Origin: Bacteroidota bacterium
Lineage (GTDB): Bacteria > Bacteroidota > Bacteroidia > Bacteroidales > UBA10428
Assembly (NCBI GenBank): GCA_003252385.1
Contig: QKEH01000164.1
Location: forward strand, 1-36,093
Direction: 5' to 3'
DNA length: 36,093 nucleotides
In this document: piece after piece, positions 7,209-26,398 of the stretch
Numbering within the stretch: position 1 is the first letter of the stretch
Layout of the letters: the number at the start of each line of letters is the position of its first letter
Made by a program: the position numbers and the translations under genes
The notes under the pieces: generated by a model
The model's database searches: none
Seen by the model: only the letters and a program-made list of their open reading frames with translations
Told to the model about the DNA's origin: nothing

Positions 7209-7239
7209 TTTGTAGTTTGATCTATAATTTGTAGTTTTG
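7209..7239 (+). promoter_or_regulatory. Promoter of rimP-nusA-infB
   Basis: TTTG at 7209-7212, 19 nt of spacer, then TAGTTTTG at 7232-7239. This is a full match to the Bacteroidota -33/-7 promoter consensus (TTTG, N19, TAnnTTTG). Transcription would begin near 7246, giving a leader of about 50 nt before rimP. Confidence 0.75.
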
Positions 7240-13010: not shown

Positions 13011-13136
13011 AATGGGGCTTGCAAATCGGTATTTTCATGTGCGCTTTTTTACCTGAACAACTGGCATTCAGACTAAAAAACTGTTTCTTTGCAGTTCAAA
13101 CCTAAAGCGAAATTTCTTCACTCAATTGCCGTTATC

Positions 13137-16100
13137 ATGAACTATAAAACCTTACTAGCCGTAAGCATTCTATCCCTTTTTCCAGTCATCACAGCACATA
13201 CCCAGGTTGCTGTAACCGGCGTTGTGCTTTCGCACGAAGATATTTACATGAACCCGGGCACAACGTATCAACTGGCCGCCCAGGTACAACCCCTCACAGC
13301 CACTGACAATACCATAACATGGAGTACCCTGACAGGCACTATCGCCACCGTGAACAATGGTGCCGTTACCGCACTGGTATCGGGTTCGGAACAAATTGTG
13401 GTTACCACTCTCGACGGATCCTTTACCGATACCTGTACGGTACATGTGGTGGATCACCCCTTGTATGCCGTGGAGGCCGAAAGTTATACCAGCACGGGTG
13501 GCCTCCTCAGTAATACCACCTGGGGTGGTACCGGCTATGGCGTCAATGTTTCCTCCTACGGTATAAATTATGTTAACAATGGCGATTCCGTCATGTATAG
13601 CTTTTCGCTTCCGGAAAGCGGGATCTATCAGCTGATCTATTCCATTTCCACGCCAAGCGATCAGGCAGAAATCAAAGCCTATATCGACCATCGGCTCGTG
13701 TCCACCGATCCGGTGACCAACAACCGAAAATGGGACAGTTACTACAGCCTGCTTTCTGGCGAAACCACCGGGTGTGAGGCAGGCCCACATACCCTGAGCC
13801 TGTATGCCAGCGGCACCAATCCCTGGCAATGGAACCTCGATCGTATTCAATTCCTGAAAACCGCCAACCTTACCATTCCGGTGGAAAGCATCCAACTGAC
13901 CCCCGAACAGGTTACCCTGCAATTAGGTCAAAATACCTCACTGTCCCACAGTATTCTGCCTGCCAATGCAACCAACCAACAGGTAAGCTTCCGCTCCGAA
14001 AACCCGGCTGTAGCCAATGTAACCAACCTGGGGGCGGTGAGCGCGATATCAGTTGGCTCAGCCCTTGTGGTAGTTGCCACCAGCGACGGCGGTTTTAGCG
14101 ACACCTCCCGCATAACGGTTACCGGTATCCCGGTTTCCGGTATTTCCGTAACTCCTTCCACCGATACCCTTATCCTGGGGCAAACCTTGGTTCTAACGGC
14201 CTCCCTAAGTCCCATCAATGCCACGGACGACACCATAGTATGGCATTCCGTTAACCCACTGAAAGCTTCGGTGAGCCAAACCGGTTTGGTAACGGCTATC
14301 GATACAGGATGGGTTTCTATCGTGGCTACCTCGCACGATGGTAATTACCCCGATTCCTCCAGGATATACATTCAACGTATTGCCGTGGAAACCCTGCAGG
14401 TGACTCCGGATTCGCTATCCCTCCGGTTGGGCGATCAGGCTGATCTTACCGCCGTTCTTCTGCCCGCAAATGCAACCAATAAGCAATACACCTGGCGATC
14501 CGATAGCCCCGAAATTGCCAGTGTGAACTCCTCCGGACAGGTAAATGCCCTGAGCCTGGGACTGGCGCACCTCATTGCCACCGCTACCGATGGCGGTTTA
14601 AGCGATAGCTGTACGGTTACGGTAACTGGCATTCCGGTGGATAGTGTGCGGGTACTCCCCGAATCGGACACCCTGAAAATTGGAGCCAGCCTGATACTTC
14701 GTGCCACGGTGTATCCGGCCAACGCCAGCAACCCAACTGTAAGCTGGCAATCGTCCAACCTCAATGTGGCCCGGATTGACACCAACGGAAAAGTATCGGC
14801 ACTTCAGGCCGGCACAGCCACCATCGTAGTTCATACCAGCGATGGGAACCATACCGACACCACCCGCCTCCTTATTGTTCCGGTGGCCGTAGAAAGCCTG
14901 GAACTACTTCCTGCCCGACTTACCCTGCATGTAGGCGACACCCAAACCATTCAGGCAGTGGTTCTGCCCGATACGGCAACCAACCGAAACCTATCCTGGC
15001 GATCGACCCAGATCGCAGTGGCCACAGTCAGCCAAACAGGCCGGGTAACCGCACTCACCGAAGGGCTAACCAGCGTAATAGCCACCACGCAGGACGGACA
15101 CTTTACGGATACCGTACGCCTTACTGTGGAGCGCATACCCGTGCAGTCGGTTTCCATCAGTCCCAACCAAAGTACGCTCCTGATTGGGGACCAGCTCCGG
15201 TTCGAAGCTATCGTCACCCCTTCCAATGCCACCTATCCGGGAGTTTTGTGGGCATCAGACAATAACGCATGCATTCAAATTGACCAGCTAGGCAACGTTC
15301 GGGCTCTGGCCGAGGGCACCTGTACCTTACGGGTAACCACCACCGATGGAGGTTTTACCGCATCGGCATCCATCACGGTGCATCCTATTCATGTTAACAG
15401 CATCAGCTTGTCTCCCGGTGAACTGGTGCTTCAAATTGGAGAGGAAACTAATTTGACGGCAATCATAAACCCACAGAATGCCACCAACCCCAACTACTCC
15501 TGGTTTTCGGAAAATACCAGCATTGCCCACGTGGATAACCTGGGCAGGGTTAGTGCCATAACCCTGGGCGAAACCTACGTGGTGGTAACTACCGAAGATG
15601 GTTCGCTTACCGATACCACTTTCATTACCGTTACGGGAATACAGGTTATAGGAATCAATCTGGAACCGGACGTTCTTAACCTGCTGGATGGCGACACCTA
15701 CAACCTTACTGCAGGCATACTACCTGTCAATGCCAGCGACCAACGCATCCTGTGGAGCGTCGATAGTTCGCAAATTGCCCTGGTAACTGATAACGGACAG
15801 GTCACTGCTACGGGAGTTGGACAAGCCATAGTGAAGGCCACCAGTCGCGATGGCCATTTTAGCGATAGTACGCAGGTTATCGTTTCGGCACGCCCTGTAG
15901 ACAATGTTCGGGTATTCCCCTCCTTCTATTCGCTGAAAATTGGCGATACCATACGATTAACTGCCCGCATAACACCTGCCAATGCTACCAACCGACTGGT
16001 TTCGTGGGAAACCCAGGCGCCATCCATTGCATCTATAACCTCCGATGGCCTGTTAACGGGACTGGCCGTAGGCAACACCGTCATTCAGGTTACTACCCTC

Positions 16101-16409
16101 GATGGGGGATTTTCGGCATCGTCTACCATTCAGGTGGTTAACACCAACGCGATCAACCTTTTTGAAGGATCCCGGTTGAAACTGTTTCCCAATCCGGCAA
16201 GCCAGTCCATTACTCTGAACGGGCTCCTTGCGAAAACTCAAACTTTACGTATTATTACCGCGCAGGGAGCCTTGGTGTTTTCCGAAACTGTTGACGACAA
16301 AACCGAATTTACCATCGCCATAAACCAGCTTCGTAGCGGTTGGTACATTTTGGTAGTTCAATCGGAAGACGAACTCCACCACCTCCCGTTCAGCAAAACA
16401 GAACCTTAA
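13137..16409 (+). CDS. T9SS-exported BIG2-repeat protein with CBM6-like domain
   Basis: Large secreted surface or extracellular protein of 1090 residues. A signal peptide (MNYKTLLAVSILSLFPVITA) is followed by one BIG2 Ig-like domain (about 24-108), a domain of about 135 residues resembling carbohydrate-binding module family 6 (from AVEAESYTS to WQWNLDRIQFLK, about 111-245), then nine BIG2 domains of exactly 84 residues each. A C-terminal T9SS type A sorting domain ends it (LKLFPNPASQSITLNG and a terminal strand with GWYILVV). No catalytic domain is visible, so binding or adhesion to a polysaccharide is an inference from the module type. The frame is open from a TTG at 13089; the ATG at 13137 gives the signal peptide. 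A near -7 box, TTTCTTTG, lies at 13084-13091. Confidence 0.88.
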   Translation: MNYKTLLAVSILSLFPVITAHTQVAVTGVVLSHEDIYMNPGTTYQLAAQVQPLTATDNTITWSTLTGTIATVNNGAVTALVSGSEQIVVTTLDGSFTDTCTVHVVDHPLYAVEAESYTSTGGLLSNTTWGGTGYGVNVSSYGINYVNNGDSVMYSFSLPESGIYQLIYSISTPSDQAEIKAYIDHRLVSTDPVTNNRKWDSYYSLLSGETTGCEAGPHTLSLYASGTNPWQWNLDRIQFLKTANLTIPVESIQLTPEQVTLQLGQNTSLSHSILPANATNQQVSFRSENPAVANVTNLGAVSAISVGSALVVVATSDGGFSDTSRITVTGIPVSGISVTPSTDTLILGQTLVLTASLSPINATDDTIVWHSVNPLKASVSQTGLVTAIDTGWVSIVATSHDGNYPDSSRIYIQRIAVETLQVTPDSLSLRLGDQADLTAVLLPANATNKQYTWRSDSPEIASVNSSGQVNALSLGLAHLIATATDGGLSDSCTVTVTGIPVDSVRVLPESDTLKIGASLILRATVYPANASNPTVSWQSSNLNVARIDTNGKVSALQAGTATIVVHTSDGNHTDTTRLLIVPVAVESLELLPARLTLHVGDTQTIQAVVLPDTATNRNLSWRSTQIAVATVSQTGRVTALTEGLTSVIATTQDGHFTDTVRLTVERIPVQSVSISPNQSTLLIGDQLRFEAIVTPSNATYPGVLWASDNNACIQIDQLGNVRALAEGTCTLRVTTTDGGFTASASITVHPIHVNSISLSPGELVLQIGEETNLTAIINPQNATNPNYSWFSENTSIAHVDNLGRVSAITLGETYVVVTTEDGSLTDTTFITVTGIQVIGINLEPDVLNLLDGDTYNLTAGILPVNASDQRILWSVDSSQIALVTDNGQVTATGVGQAIVKATSRDGHFSDSTQVIVSARPVDNVRVFPSFYSLKIGDTIRLTARITPANATNRLVSWETQAPSIASITSDGLLTGLAVGNTVIQVTTLDGGFSASSTIQVVNTNAINLFEGSRLKLFPNPASQSITLNGLLAKTQTLRIITAQGALVFSETVDDKTEFTIAINQLRSGWYILVVQSEDELHHLPFSKTEP
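13875..16142 (+). repeat. Nine in-frame 252-nt BIG2 repeats without indels
   Basis: Units start at 13875, 14127, 14379, 14631, 14883, 15135, 15387, 15639 and 15891 and each spans exactly 252 nt (84 codons). Most start with [IV]-x-V and contain LP-x-NAT-N...W and T-x-DG-x2-[TS]D. The units are clearly diverged in DNA, so this is an old array kept at fixed length. Confidence 0.95.
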
Positions 16410-21968: not shown

Positions 21969-24185
21969 ATGAGTAGACGGCTTGTACAGAAGGTTCTGGG
22001 TTATTTTGCACTTACCTGCTTAACGCTCTGCGGTTATCCTGCCCTTGCTGCAGCTAACAATATTGAACAACAAATTGAAGAACAAATCAGCCTAGCCCGG
22101 AAAGCGGAAGAAAACGGAAACCCAACCGACCAGGCACGCTACTATACCAAACTGGGATATTTATACTGGCAAATTGATGCCAAACTGGAAGCAATCGACT
22201 TTTTCAGCCGCTCTGTAACCGTTAACGAAAAACTGGGCAATAAGAACGCTATTAAAACCCTTTACAACAACCTGGGTTTAATCCATTCCGAACGAGAGGA
22301 GTACCAGAAGGCCATTGGCTTTTTCGAAAAGAGTCTCCATTTAAATTTAAACCAGCAAAACAAAGCAGAAGCCATTGCCGACTATCTGAATATTGCCTTG
22401 TGTTTTCAGTCGATGGGCTATTATTCCGAATCGAACAACCGAGCCGATCAGGCATTGGAAAAAGCCCTTGAAATCAACAACCTGAAACAGGCAAAAACGG
22501 CTTACGGAATACTTGGCGAGAACTATGAAAAACTGGGCGAGAGCAAAACTTCTGCCAGCTATTACGAAAAATATGCAGCCCTTACCAAGCACCTGCAACA
22601 GGAAGAAATGGCTGCTATGGAGAACCGAACCCGCGAAGTGGAAAGCCAGGTAGTTTCCAAAGAAAAGGAACTGGCCAGCACCCGAAGCGACCTTAACCAG
22701 CAACTGGAACTCAACCACGAAATGCAACTGCAAAATGAGTTGCTCAATAAGGAAAATCAACTCAAGGAAGCCGAAAAAGCCCGCCTGGAAGCAGAACAGG
22801 AACAACTCAAAGCCCGGGAAAAAACCCGGCGTACACGGTTTATCGGGTTGGTGGCAGTGCTCATTCTGTTCGGCTGCATTATTAGCCTGATCATGTGGCA
22901 ACTGGCCCAAAAGAAAAAAGCCAACCAACAGTTGAAGGAGCAAAATTTCGAAATTGAAAAGCAAAAACTCGAAATTGAAAAACAACGAGATTGGGCCAAC
23001 CAGCAAACCAAAAAAATTACCGATAGCATTCAATATGCCCAACGTATTCAAAAAGCCGTTCTCCCCCCCCTGGAAGCCTTCGACGAAACGTTTGAGGATT
23101 ATTTTGTGCTCTATAAACCGAAAGATATTGTTAGCGGAGACTTTTATTGGACCACCCGAAAAGACCAGGTCATGATTCTGGCTGTGGCCGACTGCACCGG
23201 ACATGGTGTGCCGGGAGCCTTCATGAGCATGCTGGGTGTGGCCTACCTCAACGAAATCGTCAATAAAATTGCGGTGAACAAACACATCAGCACCCTCAAC
23301 GCCGATGACATTCTCAACGAACTTCGTGAAATGATTATTTCCTCGCTGCGACAAACCGGCGACCCCAGAGAGCCCAAGGATGGCATGGACATTTCCCTTT
23401 GTATATTCGACTTTGAACGCAAGGCTATGCAGTTTGCCGGTGCAAACAATCCGCTGTTCCTGATCCGAAAGGGAGAACTGATAGTGTACACCGCCGACAA
23501 AATGCCGGTTAGCCACCACCAAAAAAAGGATGTGCTCTTTACCAAACATGAACTGGAATGGCAGCCTGATGATAAGATCTACCTCTTTTCCGATGGCTAT
23601 GTCGATCAATTTGGTGGCGACCAGAAACTTAAATTCATGGCCAAGCGCTTTCGCGAACTGCTGCTAAAAATACACCACTACCCCATGGCCGAGCAAAAGG
23701 CCATCCTTGATAAAAATCTGGCAGACTGGCGGGGAGATATACCCCAGGTCGATGACGTTTTAATCATGGGAATCAGCCTGGCAGGCAAAGTGCGCACCAA
23801 GCAAGCCAAATCGCACCTCAACTGGAGCGATAAAAAAATACTGATTGCCGAGGACACCGATGTAAATTACTTCCTGTTAACCGCTGTTCTGAAGGACACA
23901 CGTGCGGCACTGGTGCGGGTTAAGGACGGCCAGGAGGCCATCGATTTTGTAAACAACAACGAGGTAGACCTGATCCTGATGGACATCAATATGCCCCGTA
24001 TGAACGGATACGATGCTACCCGAAGAATCAAGGAAATCCGTAGCGATATTCCCATCATTGTACAAACCGCCATGCACTACGACGATGAAAGCGAGGAAGC
24101 CTTCAAAGCCGGAGCAGATGATTACATCGCCAAACCCATCGACTTAAAAACCTTTATGACTAAGGTGGAGAAACTCCTCAGCTAG
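21969..24185 (+). CDS. TPR-PP2C (SpoIIE) phosphatase with C-terminal receiver domain
   Basis: Membrane-bound sensor phosphatase of 738 residues, functionally like SiaA or RsbU. Order: signal peptide (1-28), TPR repeats in the periplasm (about 35-205), coiled coil (about 210-290), membrane span (291-312), short coiled coil (315-350), PP2C/SpoIIE domain (about 352-605) and receiver domain (about 622-738). The PP2C metal ligands are present: Asp391 (SGDFYW), Asp408 (ADCTGHG), Asp474 (DGMDIS), Asp542 (FSDG) and Asp596. The receiver has its acidic pair (Glu628, Asp629), phosphoacceptor Asp672 (MDINMPRMNG), Thr700 and Lys722 (AKP). It lies 72 nt upstream of siaC, its likely substrate. A receiver at the C-terminal end of a PP2C protein is unusual. 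Confidence 0.9.
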   Translation: MSRRLVQKVLGYFALTCLTLCGYPALAAANNIEQQIEEQISLARKAEENGNPTDQARYYTKLGYLYWQIDAKLEAIDFFSRSVTVNEKLGNKNAIKTLYNNLGLIHSEREEYQKAIGFFEKSLHLNLNQQNKAEAIADYLNIALCFQSMGYYSESNNRADQALEKALEINNLKQAKTAYGILGENYEKLGESKTSASYYEKYAALTKHLQQEEMAAMENRTREVESQVVSKEKELASTRSDLNQQLELNHEMQLQNELLNKENQLKEAEKARLEAEQEQLKAREKTRRTRFIGLVAVLILFGCIISLIMWQLAQKKKANQQLKEQNFEIEKQKLEIEKQRDWANQQTKKITDSIQYAQRIQKAVLPPLEAFDETFEDYFVLYKPKDIVSGDFYWTTRKDQVMILAVADCTGHGVPGAFMSMLGVAYLNEIVNKIAVNKHISTLNADDILNELREMIISSLRQTGDPREPKDGMDISLCIFDFERKAMQFAGANNPLFLIRKGELIVYTADKMPVSHHQKKDVLFTKHELEWQPDDKIYLFSDGYVDQFGGDQKLKFMAKRFRELLLKIHHYPMAEQKAILDKNLADWRGDIPQVDDVLIMGISLAGKVRTKQAKSHLNWSDKKILIAEDTDVNYFLLTAVLKDTRAALVRVKDGQEAIDFVNNNEVDLILMDINMPRMNGYDATRRIKEIRSDIPIIVQTAMHYDDESEEAFKAGADDYIAKPIDLKTFMTKVEKLLS

Positions 24186-24226
24186 GTTGAGCCCGGATTA
24201 TGATTCAGGTTTTCAAAAAGAATATG

Positions 24227-24234
24227 TATCTTTA
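24227..24234 (+). promoter_or_regulatory. Weak possible siaC promoter (-7 box)
   Basis: TATCTTTA differs from TAnnTTTG in the last base and lies 24 nt before the siaC ATG. No -33 box is evident. The gene may instead be transcribed with the phosphatase gene. Confidence 0.25.
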
Positions 24235-24257
24235 ATAGTGTTCAAATACTTAAACGC

Positions 24258-24641
24258 ATGAATCCCTTGTACATTCAAGCCACCGACGACACCCCTGAAA
24301 TACACTTCGACAAAACCCAAGGCATTTTCAGAATAACCGGTAAATCGCTGCCCGAAGACGTAATCAGTTTTTATACCCCCGCCTTTTCCTGGCTGGAACA
24401 GTACATCTCCGACCCCAATGAGCACACGAAAGTGGAAGTTAAGGTGGTGTATTTCAACTCGGCCTCGCAAAGAGCACTAAACGAGATCTTTACCATACTA
24501 AGCCGGGTAAGAATTAAGAATAAAGAAATAGTGGTTGATTGGTACTTTATTGAGGATGATGAGGAAATGTGCGAAGCTGGCGAAGAATATGCCGATATCA
24601 CCAAAATTGAATTTAACTTTAAAACCTATAACCCCGAATAG
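24258..24641 (+). CDS. siaC: SiaC family regulatory phosphoprotein (DUF1987)
   Basis: Small cytoplasmic switch protein. In Pseudomonas aeruginosa SiaC is phosphorylated by SiaB, dephosphorylated by the PP2C phosphatase SiaA, and when unphosphorylated activates the diguanylate cyclase SiaD. The 127 residues carry the family signatures FRITGKSLPEDVISFYTP, the block VVYFNSASQRALNEIF and an acidic late segment with WYFIEDDEEMCEAGEEY. The phosphosite, Thr68 in P. aeruginosa as I recall, is Ser68 here. The phosphatase lies directly upstream; no SiaB- or SiaD-like gene is in the window. The OmpL47-like gene begins 2 nt after its stop. Confidence 0.85.
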   Translation: MNPLYIQATDDTPEIHFDKTQGIFRITGKSLPEDVISFYTPAFSWLEQYISDPNEHTKVEVKVVYFNSASQRALNEIFTILSRVRIKNKEIVVDWYFIEDDEEMCEAGEEYADITKIEFNFKTYNPE

Positions 24642-24643
24642 CC

Positions 24644-26398
24644 ATGACGAATTATCAGCCATCGGTCTGTTTAAAATATCTCCACGCTATGTTCCGATAC
24701 CTCCTCGTTGCAGGGCTCATTTTCAGCAACCTTGTGAGCTTTGCACAAAGTCAGTTAACTCATAAAAAAGGAACCTATATCGATTCAGATGGCAAGCTCT
24801 ACGTAAATAAACAGCTGGGGCTATACGTTTGGCTCTCCACCTCACCCGATGAAAAAGCGCAAAAGTACCGTCTGTTCAGCGAAGCGTCCAAAGCCTACTC
24901 CAATCCCATGTATCTCGACACCGATGGATTCAATACCCTGCGGTCGCCTTCTGCTGTGGATACCGTAACGCATAAAACCGTGCTGCCGATGCAGGATATT
25001 GTTTTTGAAATCTATGCCGACGAAACCGCACCTACCACCACCATCGACTATAAGGTGAATCCCTTCCAGGCCGAACACAAAATCAACCTGGGAACCGGAA
25101 CCGAAATTAGTCTTGCAGCGAAAGACCTGCTCTCGGGAGTTGACGCTATTTACTACTCGCTCGATGGCGCACCCTATCAACCCTACACCACACCTTTAAA
25201 GATAGAACAGGAAAAAGAATACAGCCTCAAATTCTATGCGGTAGACCATGTGGGCAATGTGGAGGAAGTGCATACCCGGGAGCTGGCCTACGACAAAACC
25301 TCCCCCGTAACGCAACTTACCATTGACGTGGATCAGTACGAAAACATTCTCTCGTCTCAATCCGCTATTACGCTATCGTCAGAAGATAAAGGTATAGGTG
25401 TTAAACACATTTATTACAAGCTGGACAACGGTCCGGAAAAAGTGTACACCGGAGTCATTCAGGCAAAATACATTTCCCAGGACGAGCACACCATAACCTA
25501 TTACGCTACCGATAAAGTTGGGAATAAGGAAGCGGAGAGAACCTATGCATTCTATGTGGACAAAACCGCCCCGACCATTATTGAAGAAGTAATGGGTAAA
25601 AGTTTCTTCTCGGGAGGTAAAGAATATTCCTCAGGGAAAGCACGTCTAAAACTCACTTCGTTCGACAACAAGGCAGGAGTCAAGGAAATTCGTTATTCCG
25701 TGAACAATGGAGAATTTCTGGTGTATGACAAACCGGTATTTTTAACTCAGTCATCGGGCGTGTTAACCATACAAACCTATGCGGTCGATAATGTCAACAA
25801 CCGATCCAGCAGCCAGCTGGCCAATCAAAAAACCAACATACCCTACATCGACCTTACCGGCCCCAAATTGGCCTACAGCATACAGGGAGCAAGTTTCACC
25901 ACCCGCGATACGTTGTTTATAAACGCAACCAGCGGTATTGTGCTGAAAGGTACCGATTCGGAGGCTGGCATGAACCACATAGAGTATTCGCTCAACGACT
26001 CCACCACAAAAGAATATTCGAATGCCATTAAGGTGGCATCCGAAGGTTACAGTACCATTGCCTATACCGGTTTCGACAATGTGGATAATACCAGCTCCAG
26101 TTCATTTAGCTTTAAAGTGGACAATACCGGCCCCAAAATTCAGGAAAGTTTTGGTACCAGCCGGTTGGGTATGGAAAACGGCATTGCAGTTTACCCGGCT
26201 CACACCATCCTGTTCGTAACGGCCAACGATGTTGTGGTAGGTTTACAGCGTATTACCTATTGTTTAAACAATGCCCCGGTTAAAGAATCTACCGGTATGT
26301 TTACCCATTTGCCTAAAGGTAAAAATCAGATGACCATTACCGCTTACGATAAGCTGGGGAATACTTCTGAAAAGACAATAACTTTTATTGTTCAATAG
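24644..26398 (+). CDS. Secreted protein with five OmpL47-like repeats
   Basis: Exported protein of 584 residues, function unknown. The likely signal peptide is MFRYLLVAGLIFSNLVSFAQ, preceded by 15 residues if the first ATG is used; the ATG at 24689 is an alternative start, but 24644 lies only 2 nt after the siaC stop. Residues about 36-125 form a domain I do not recognise. Then come five beta-rich units of 85-95 residues with the pattern G[VI]..I.YS(L/V)(D/N)..., Y......, Y..D..GN, as in OmpL47-type repeats and other Ig-like folds. Without a C-terminal sorting domain, it may stay in the periplasm or outer membrane. Probably cotranscribed with siaC. Confidence 0.7.
   Translation: MTNYQPSVCLKYLHAMFRYLLVAGLIFSNLVSFAQSQLTHKKGTYIDSDGKLYVNKQLGLYVWLSTSPDEKAQKYRLFSEASKAYSNPMYLDTDGFNTLRSPSAVDTVTHKTVLPMQDIVFEIYADETAPTTTIDYKVNPFQAEHKINLGTGTEISLAAKDLLSGVDAIYYSLDGAPYQPYTTPLKIEQEKEYSLKFYAVDHVGNVEEVHTRELAYDKTSPVTQLTIDVDQYENILSSQSAITLSSEDKGIGVKHIYYKLDNGPEKVYTGVIQAKYISQDEHTITYYATDKVGNKEAERTYAFYVDKTAPTIIEEVMGKSFFSGGKEYSSGKARLKLTSFDNKAGVKEIRYSVNNGEFLVYDKPVFLTQSSGVLTIQTYAVDNVNNRSSSQLANQKTNIPYIDLTGPKLAYSIQGASFTTRDTLFINATSGIVLKGTDSEAGMNHIEYSLNDSTTKEYSNAIKVASEGYSTIAYTGFDNVDNTSSSSFSFKVDNTGPKIQESFGTSRLGMENGIAVYPAHTILFVTANDVVVGLQRITYCLNNAPVKESTGMFTHLPKGKNQMTITAYDKLGNTSEKTITFIVQ

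Follow-up and report, generated by a model that had tools for sequence, protein, structure and literature searches.

Phosphatases of the SpoIIE type, switch proteins of the STAS family and dedicated kinases make up the partner switches of the SpoIIAA and RsbV systems. In Pseudomonas aeruginosa, according to two papers (PMC7647112, PMC8457831), SiaC is phosphorylated at T68 by SiaB and dephosphorylated by SiaA, and unphosphorylated SiaC holds the stalk of SiaD. PMC7647112 also describes SiaA as carrying a HAMP domain and two membrane regions, and notes that the structure of SiaC is close to that of anti-sigma antagonists. For Campylobacterota, PMC9239204 reports partner switches that involve c-di-GMP enzymes. 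In the literature that we found, SiaC is the switch of one diguanylate cyclase, and among the papers listed for SiaC, SiaB or DUF1987 the relevant ones deal with P. aeruginosa. Our literature search, with most subscription papers outside its scope, returned nothing on SpoIIE partner switching in Bacteroidetes and PMC8457831 alone on DUF1987 or DUF6272. Among the matches listed for SiaA, SiaB or SiaC, none concerned Bacteroidota, and none for a TerB/ABC transporter with a phosphatase or anti-anti-sigma factor in Bacteroidetes was relevant by its title or the start of its abstract.

The DNA analyzed here is a 36,093-nucleotide stretch (the window; contig C69) from a Bacteroidales genome (G000) whose assembly, made up of 182 contigs, reaches a completeness of 97.55%. 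On its plus strand, positions 21969..24185 encode a membrane SiaA-like phosphatase of 738 amino acids, with the order TPR, membrane helix, PP2C and receiver (REC) domain as judged by Pfam, a PDB search and hydropathy. The TPR region covers residues 55-132 (22131..22364), where Pfam places TPR_12 at residues 55-123 and more TPR matches up to residue 132. A single membrane segment rises above the hydropathy threshold, at residues 287-315 (22827..22913). The SpoIIE/PP2C domain at residues 399-601 (23163..23771) scores 60.9 bits in Pfam vs a cut-off of 25 and has the motif aspartates D408, D542 and D595/D596; in the PDB it finds a single entry at E<=0.01, namely P. aeruginosa SiaA (6k4e, E 2.7e-28). 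The REC domain at residues 624-733 (23838..24167) scores 92.6 bits with Pfam Response_reg vs a cut-off of 30.2. With the SiaA equivalog (NF038263) the protein reaches 196 bits, below the cut-off of 700, and HAMP is absent from its Pfam listing, which holds TPR, SpoIIE and Response_reg only. No -33/-7 motif, which we take to be the Bacteroidota-type promoter, was found at up to one mismatch before the phosphatase gene or between it and the gene that follows; the only exact match in the window is at 7209.

That following gene, 72 bp downstream on the same strand (24258..24641), encodes a SiaC protein of 127 amino acids, identified by Pfam (PF09345, 126.7 bits vs a cut-off of 24.5), a PDB search and a structural model. 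By sequence its PDB matches are SiaC (1.7e-12) and four weak, unrelated entries at 0.0075 or worse. With the model (pLDDT 95.8) as query, the PDB yields eight hits at E<=0.001, each of them a SiaC chain, with TM up to 0.90; RsbV and SpoIIAA appear as weak fold matches (E 0.23 and 0.38). The codon at 24459..24461 specifies Ser68, which aligns to T68, the residue that is phosphorylated in SiaC from P. aeruginosa. As with the phosphatase, the score for the SiaC equivalog (NF038265, 81.5 bits) falls below the cut-off, here 150. The initial annotation had described a membrane PP2C phosphatase directly upstream of a DUF1987/SiaC gene, and both genes are indeed present at these positions, with Pfam scores over the cut-offs.

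Two base pairs after the SiaC gene begins a third gene on the plus strand (24644..26398), encoding an OmpL47-type protein of 584 amino acids in which a signal helix precedes a string of Ig-like domains (NCBIfam, model and neighborhood), which we call the rod protein. It scores 251.3 bits with the OmpL47-type domain (NF047446) vs a cut-off of 40. Its model (pLDDT 83.4) begins with a helix, after which beta domains follow one another; with a pTM of 0.52, only the domains of this model are usable and not their arrangement. In the PDB the model is best matched by parts of the grappling hook protein of Aureispira (query TM <=0.43), followed by titin, cadherin and other Ig-like chains, and we infer that the protein may be rod-shaped. 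OmpL47 of Leptospira (PMC2698987) shares the NCBIfam domain with the rod protein, but the latter scores below the equivalog cut-off (188.5 vs 250) and its Ig-like chain is nearest to the Aureispira pieces in the PDB. Elsewhere in the window, positions 13089-16409 encode a 1,106-amino-acid protein that by eye consists largely of repeated, Ig-like-looking units.

The locus resembles SiaABCD of P. aeruginosa in having a PP2C domain nearest to that of SiaA, the SiaC fold and the phospho-acceptor position, and in belonging to a genome with SiaB-family kinases. It differs in that no SiaB gene lies in the unit and no GGDEF match occurs in the genome. Furthermore, the phosphatase has TPR and REC domains where SiaA has HAMP and two membrane regions, the genome holds many SiaC matches, and a rod gene forms part of the unit.

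With the rod protein alone as a query, we kept 80 loci out of 279 relatives, which come mostly from metagenome-assembled genomes titled Bacteroidales or Bacteroidetes; the four nearest are 59-61% identical, three 'Zod' isolates among them. Within two genes of the rod gene, SpoIIE was found in 47 of the 80 loci, SiaC in 33, both in 26 and SiaB in one, with the rod gene at the locus edge in 10. The order SpoIIE-SiaC-rod occurs seven times, rod-SpoIIE-SiaC 13 times and SiaC-SpoIIE-rod six times; two of the last six have a second rod gene in between and hence are not within the 26. Two further rod loci have SiaC genes on the opposite strand. In a survey of individual genomes, for which the SpoIIE and SiaB profiles contained wrong-strand sequences, the window order of phosphatase, SiaC and rod also appeared in G332 and in G338, where the reading frames of rod and phosphatase are broken, and the genes of the unit appeared in other orders in G391, G374, G319 and G383. 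The two collections overlap, with G391, G332 and G383 in both. Because the phosphatase and SiaC are found together in further families of the order, and in more than one arrangement, their association is beyond chance, and the rod gene belongs to a conserved phosphatase-SiaC unit. At one rod locus (L272:3391-5964) the order is SiaC, a gene for 491 amino acids, SiaC and rod, where the 491-amino-acid gene takes the place of the phosphatase and bears no SpoIIE label.

The phosphatases near rod genes form a set of 52 that includes fragments. All three PP2C motif patterns are present in 38; another 11 are without the last pattern only, and three are without all, two of these being short fragments. 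An N-terminal signal segment exceeds the hydrophobicity threshold in 39 of the 52, so the TPRs are likely periplasmic, and those of the window phosphatase would lie outside the inner membrane even though its own signal segment stays below the threshold. The annotated "periplasmic TPRs" are therefore confirmed as TPRs by Pfam, and their side of the membrane is likely by comparison with related phosphatases. Among the 47 phosphatases of at least 500 amino acids (five shorter ones were omitted), 20 end in a REC domain, and each of these 20 is accompanied by a SiaC gene at a distance of 300 bp or less and in the same orientation, vs seven of the 27 without REC. Where rod-linked SiaC proteins lie within 5 kb of the rod gene, the window included, the phospho-site residue is Ser in 43 and Thr in eight, which accounts for all 51.

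One alternative holds that the rod gene is a bystander, and that the phosphatase and SiaC alone form a unit inserted beside a conserved envelope locus. Two loci (L273, L274), at what seems to be the corresponding place, keep the series GSCFA, TonB receptor, a gene for 252 amino acids, rod and PCMT, in which nothing matches PP2C or SiaC; L271, with rod, PCMT, GroEL and GroES, is likewise free of such matches, and the cultured Cytophagales Ekhidna, Marinoscillum and Reichenbachiella (L288, L311, L339) have rod without SpoIIE or SiaC within two genes. The pair has either been inserted at this place or been lost there in relatives. Against a bystander role stand the 47 loci with rod and phosphatase at most two genes apart, in differing gene orders, and the distribution of rod in a sample of 99 genomes of the order (G000 included): it is present in 22 of 45 genomes with SiaC vs two of 54 without (p=1.2e-7; kinship among the genomes inflates these counts, as it does all association counts here). 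We consider this alternative unlikely.

The switch genes of the source genome extend well beyond the window. Our genome search gave 21 SiaC matches, five DUF6272/SiaB matches, four TerB-ABC matches, 17 RsbW-like matches of which two exceed the cut-off, and 12 SpoIIE matches plus one more in a SpoIIE-SiaC fusion on contig C51. No GGDEF match was found in the assembly, and the same search was positive in 8 of 14 control genomes. The initial annotation had noted a single SiaC and had overlooked the REC domain as well as the rod gene as a conserved member of the unit. Its statement that a SiaB kinase is lacking stands locally, as no SiaB or GGDEF gene lies beside the pair in the window, but fails genome-wide, since the five SiaB-family matches lie elsewhere, three of them beside other SiaC genes (C127, C145, C150). 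SpoIIE and SiaC genes are at most two genes apart at C69 (the window), C79, C127 and C150. The Glu and Asn of the first SiaB motif, presumably the N-box, are kept in all five SiaB proteins and GGxGLG in four, the SiaB of C150 being the one without it; the SiaB of C127 passes the NCBIfam cut-off for SiaB-family kinases (175.5 vs 85). At the phospho-site, the 21 SiaC matches have Thr in 12, Ser in five, and Ile, Ala, Asp and Arg once each, the Arg belonging to a weak match (C51:6296, 38.2 bits) that may not be a gene. Given this conservation of residues, chemistry of the SiaB and SiaA type on SiaC is likely here.

Several of these proteins depart from the usual form. The C51 fusion (L020:7780-9849, 689 amino acids) has Ile at the phospho-site and is probably a non-phosphorylatable switch. 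A SiaC on C70 (L029:7880-8287) has Asp at the site, lies beside a normal SiaC, and is possibly locked in a phosphorylated-like state. At a further locus, L089:1937-2812 encodes a 291-amino-acid protein matching both SiaC and SiaB, an apparent fusion, beside a separate SiaC.

In a search for a SiaB that would go with the window's unit, the SiaB of C104, which sits behind a REC gene and a lipoprotein-like gene, was considered, but 19 further SiaB regions, chosen as seemingly without an adjoining SiaC, gave no rule, and five of them adjoined SiaC or TerB-ABC. Among SiaB genes without SiaC, those of four genomes (L344, L347, L349, L354) lie between genes for ~540-565 and ~610-645 amino acids, with a gene for ~230 amino acids adjoining; the likeness of these four is one of size and order only.

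Across the order, SiaC gave 433 matches in 45 of the 99 genomes. SiaB was found in 46, which are all 45 with SiaC and one alone (p=1.4e-27), and the copy numbers of the two correlate (Spearman 0.87). GGDEF is present in three of the 99 genomes, one of which has SiaC, so that 44 of the 45 genomes with SiaC have no GGDEF match. TerB-ABC (E<=1e-100) occurs in 42 of the 45 vs two of the 54 others (p=7e-22). A phylum-wide sample, in which 14 of 25 G000 candidates were scored, had SiaC in 18 of 296 genomes, with one to four copies outside G000.

The survey of DUF1987 neighborhoods that had been proposed with the annotation was carried out for 155 distinct SiaC genes, drawn chiefly from the top-scoring matches, from G000 and from rod loci, and hence not a random choice among the 433. 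Within two genes of these SiaC genes were SiaB in 96, SpoIIE in 53, TerB-ABC in 49, another SiaC in 41 and rod in eight; 24 had none of these. TerB-ABC and SiaB were both near SiaC in 28 cases with SpoIIE and in 21 without it. These counts rest on longest-ORF picks that miss genes, such as SiaC genes at C20 and in L099, and on a SpoIIE profile containing one wrong-strand sequence (L043) that was removed for the 80 rod loci. The row seen at C127 (L015:4119-12000), which comprises a PAS/GAF-SpoIIE gene, SiaB, SiaC, TerB-ABC-ABC2 and a lipoprotein-like gene, is a recurrent main operon of the SiaC network. The lipoprotein-like gene holds the second place in 28 SiaC loci, and TerB-ABC flanks SiaC in 17 of the 30 top SiaC loci (one per genome). 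In the C145 type of arrangement, TerB-ABC is convergent with SiaB-SiaC. On the grounds of neighborhood and co-occurrence, we infer that the main SiaB-SiaC operons have their best candidate for an output in the TerB-ABC transporter, which would fit the suggestion in PMC8457831 that DUF1987 proteins commonly modulate adjacent proteins. A lipoprotein-like gene ~26% identical to the gene after TerB-ABC lies on C104 (L030:884-2922) with a single REC protein and a SiaB without SiaC.

Such transporters might also be the output of the window's SiaC, in which case the three-gene unit would be a further input only. The four TerB-ABC matches in the genome agree with a shared output, as does the finding that no output gene recurs in the unit among the 80 rod loci. 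Because it is exported, the rod protein itself cannot directly be the target of cytoplasmic SiaC. However, a FastTree analysis of 202 SiaC proteins places the window SiaC in a 12-member clade made up entirely of rod-linked proteins (support 0.856), nested in a clade of 34, of which 33 are rod-linked (support 0.433); 21 of the 54 rod-linked SiaC proteins lie outside the larger clade. That this rod-linked clade stands apart from the SiaC proteins of the operons suggests that the window SiaC has a partner of its own, and a shared output seems to us improbable.

Somewhat lower in probability is a classical partner switch, in which SiaC would titrate SiaB or an RsbW-like kinase with an anti-sigma or transcription target. 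The structural closeness of SiaC to anti-sigma antagonists (PMC7647112) and the two RsbW-like matches of the genome are in favor of such a switch. A phosphatase, a switch protein and a HATPase-type kinase are shared with the SpoIIAA and RsbV systems. In contrast to those systems, the switch protein here is SiaC, by sequence not a member of the STAS family. A cluster of sigma-factor-like neighbors, recognized by eye, occurs at six SiaC loci.

An ordinary SiaABCD system with its diguanylate cyclase encoded elsewhere is hardly credible despite the family resemblance of the phosphatase and SiaC, as it is already refuted by the missing GGDEF matches in the genome and in 44 of 45 SiaC genomes, save for the case that the assembly lacks the stretch with a GGDEF gene. 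A siaD gene elsewhere in G000 is accordingly rejected, and within the limits of the assembly an output of the SiaD type is excluded. The annotated absence of a SiaD cyclase thus extends from the neighborhood to the assembly, and the proposal of a different wiring of the switch gains support from the GGDEF counts of the genome and the order; the interpretation as a whole is borne out in part, as SiaB homologs do exist elsewhere. With no detected GGDEF enzyme in a genome so rich in SiaC, the window switch probably acts on something else, and the unit is, as judged by its sequence relationships, a new wiring of a known switch.

The reading that we prefer, to which we assign about an even chance as a whole, is that the three genes are a branch, linked to the envelope, of a partner-switch network of the SiaABC type in which no diguanylate cyclase takes part. 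The TPR part of the phosphatase would sense an envelope condition, possibly via the rod protein, and the REC domain would add a two-component input. The phosphatase would then take the phosphate off Ser68 of its SiaC, and a SiaB encoded elsewhere would put it back; this kinase step is not supported by the neighborhood, as no kinase lies within two genes of rod in 79 of the 80 loci. Unphosphorylated SiaC might bind its target via the surface with which Pseudomonas SiaC holds SiaD. The rod protein would stand on the sensing side or would be the structure whose making is regulated.

With 44 of 45 SiaC genomes free of GGDEF matches, SiaC should have targets other than diguanylate cyclases, and the TerB-ABC transporter is one named, testable candidate. 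The genome also poses a question of specificity, namely how five SiaB matches could suffice for 21 SiaC matches within a single cell. Our tentative view, which we hold to be somewhat short of an even bet, is that about half of the order, mostly uncultured and of the Bacteroidales type, may use a c-di-GMP-free network of SiaC proteins (up to 21 per genome), SiaB kinases and sensor phosphatases in which SiaC would control ABC transporters and surface structures by binding directly, with the unit in the window as the surface-rod branch of this network.
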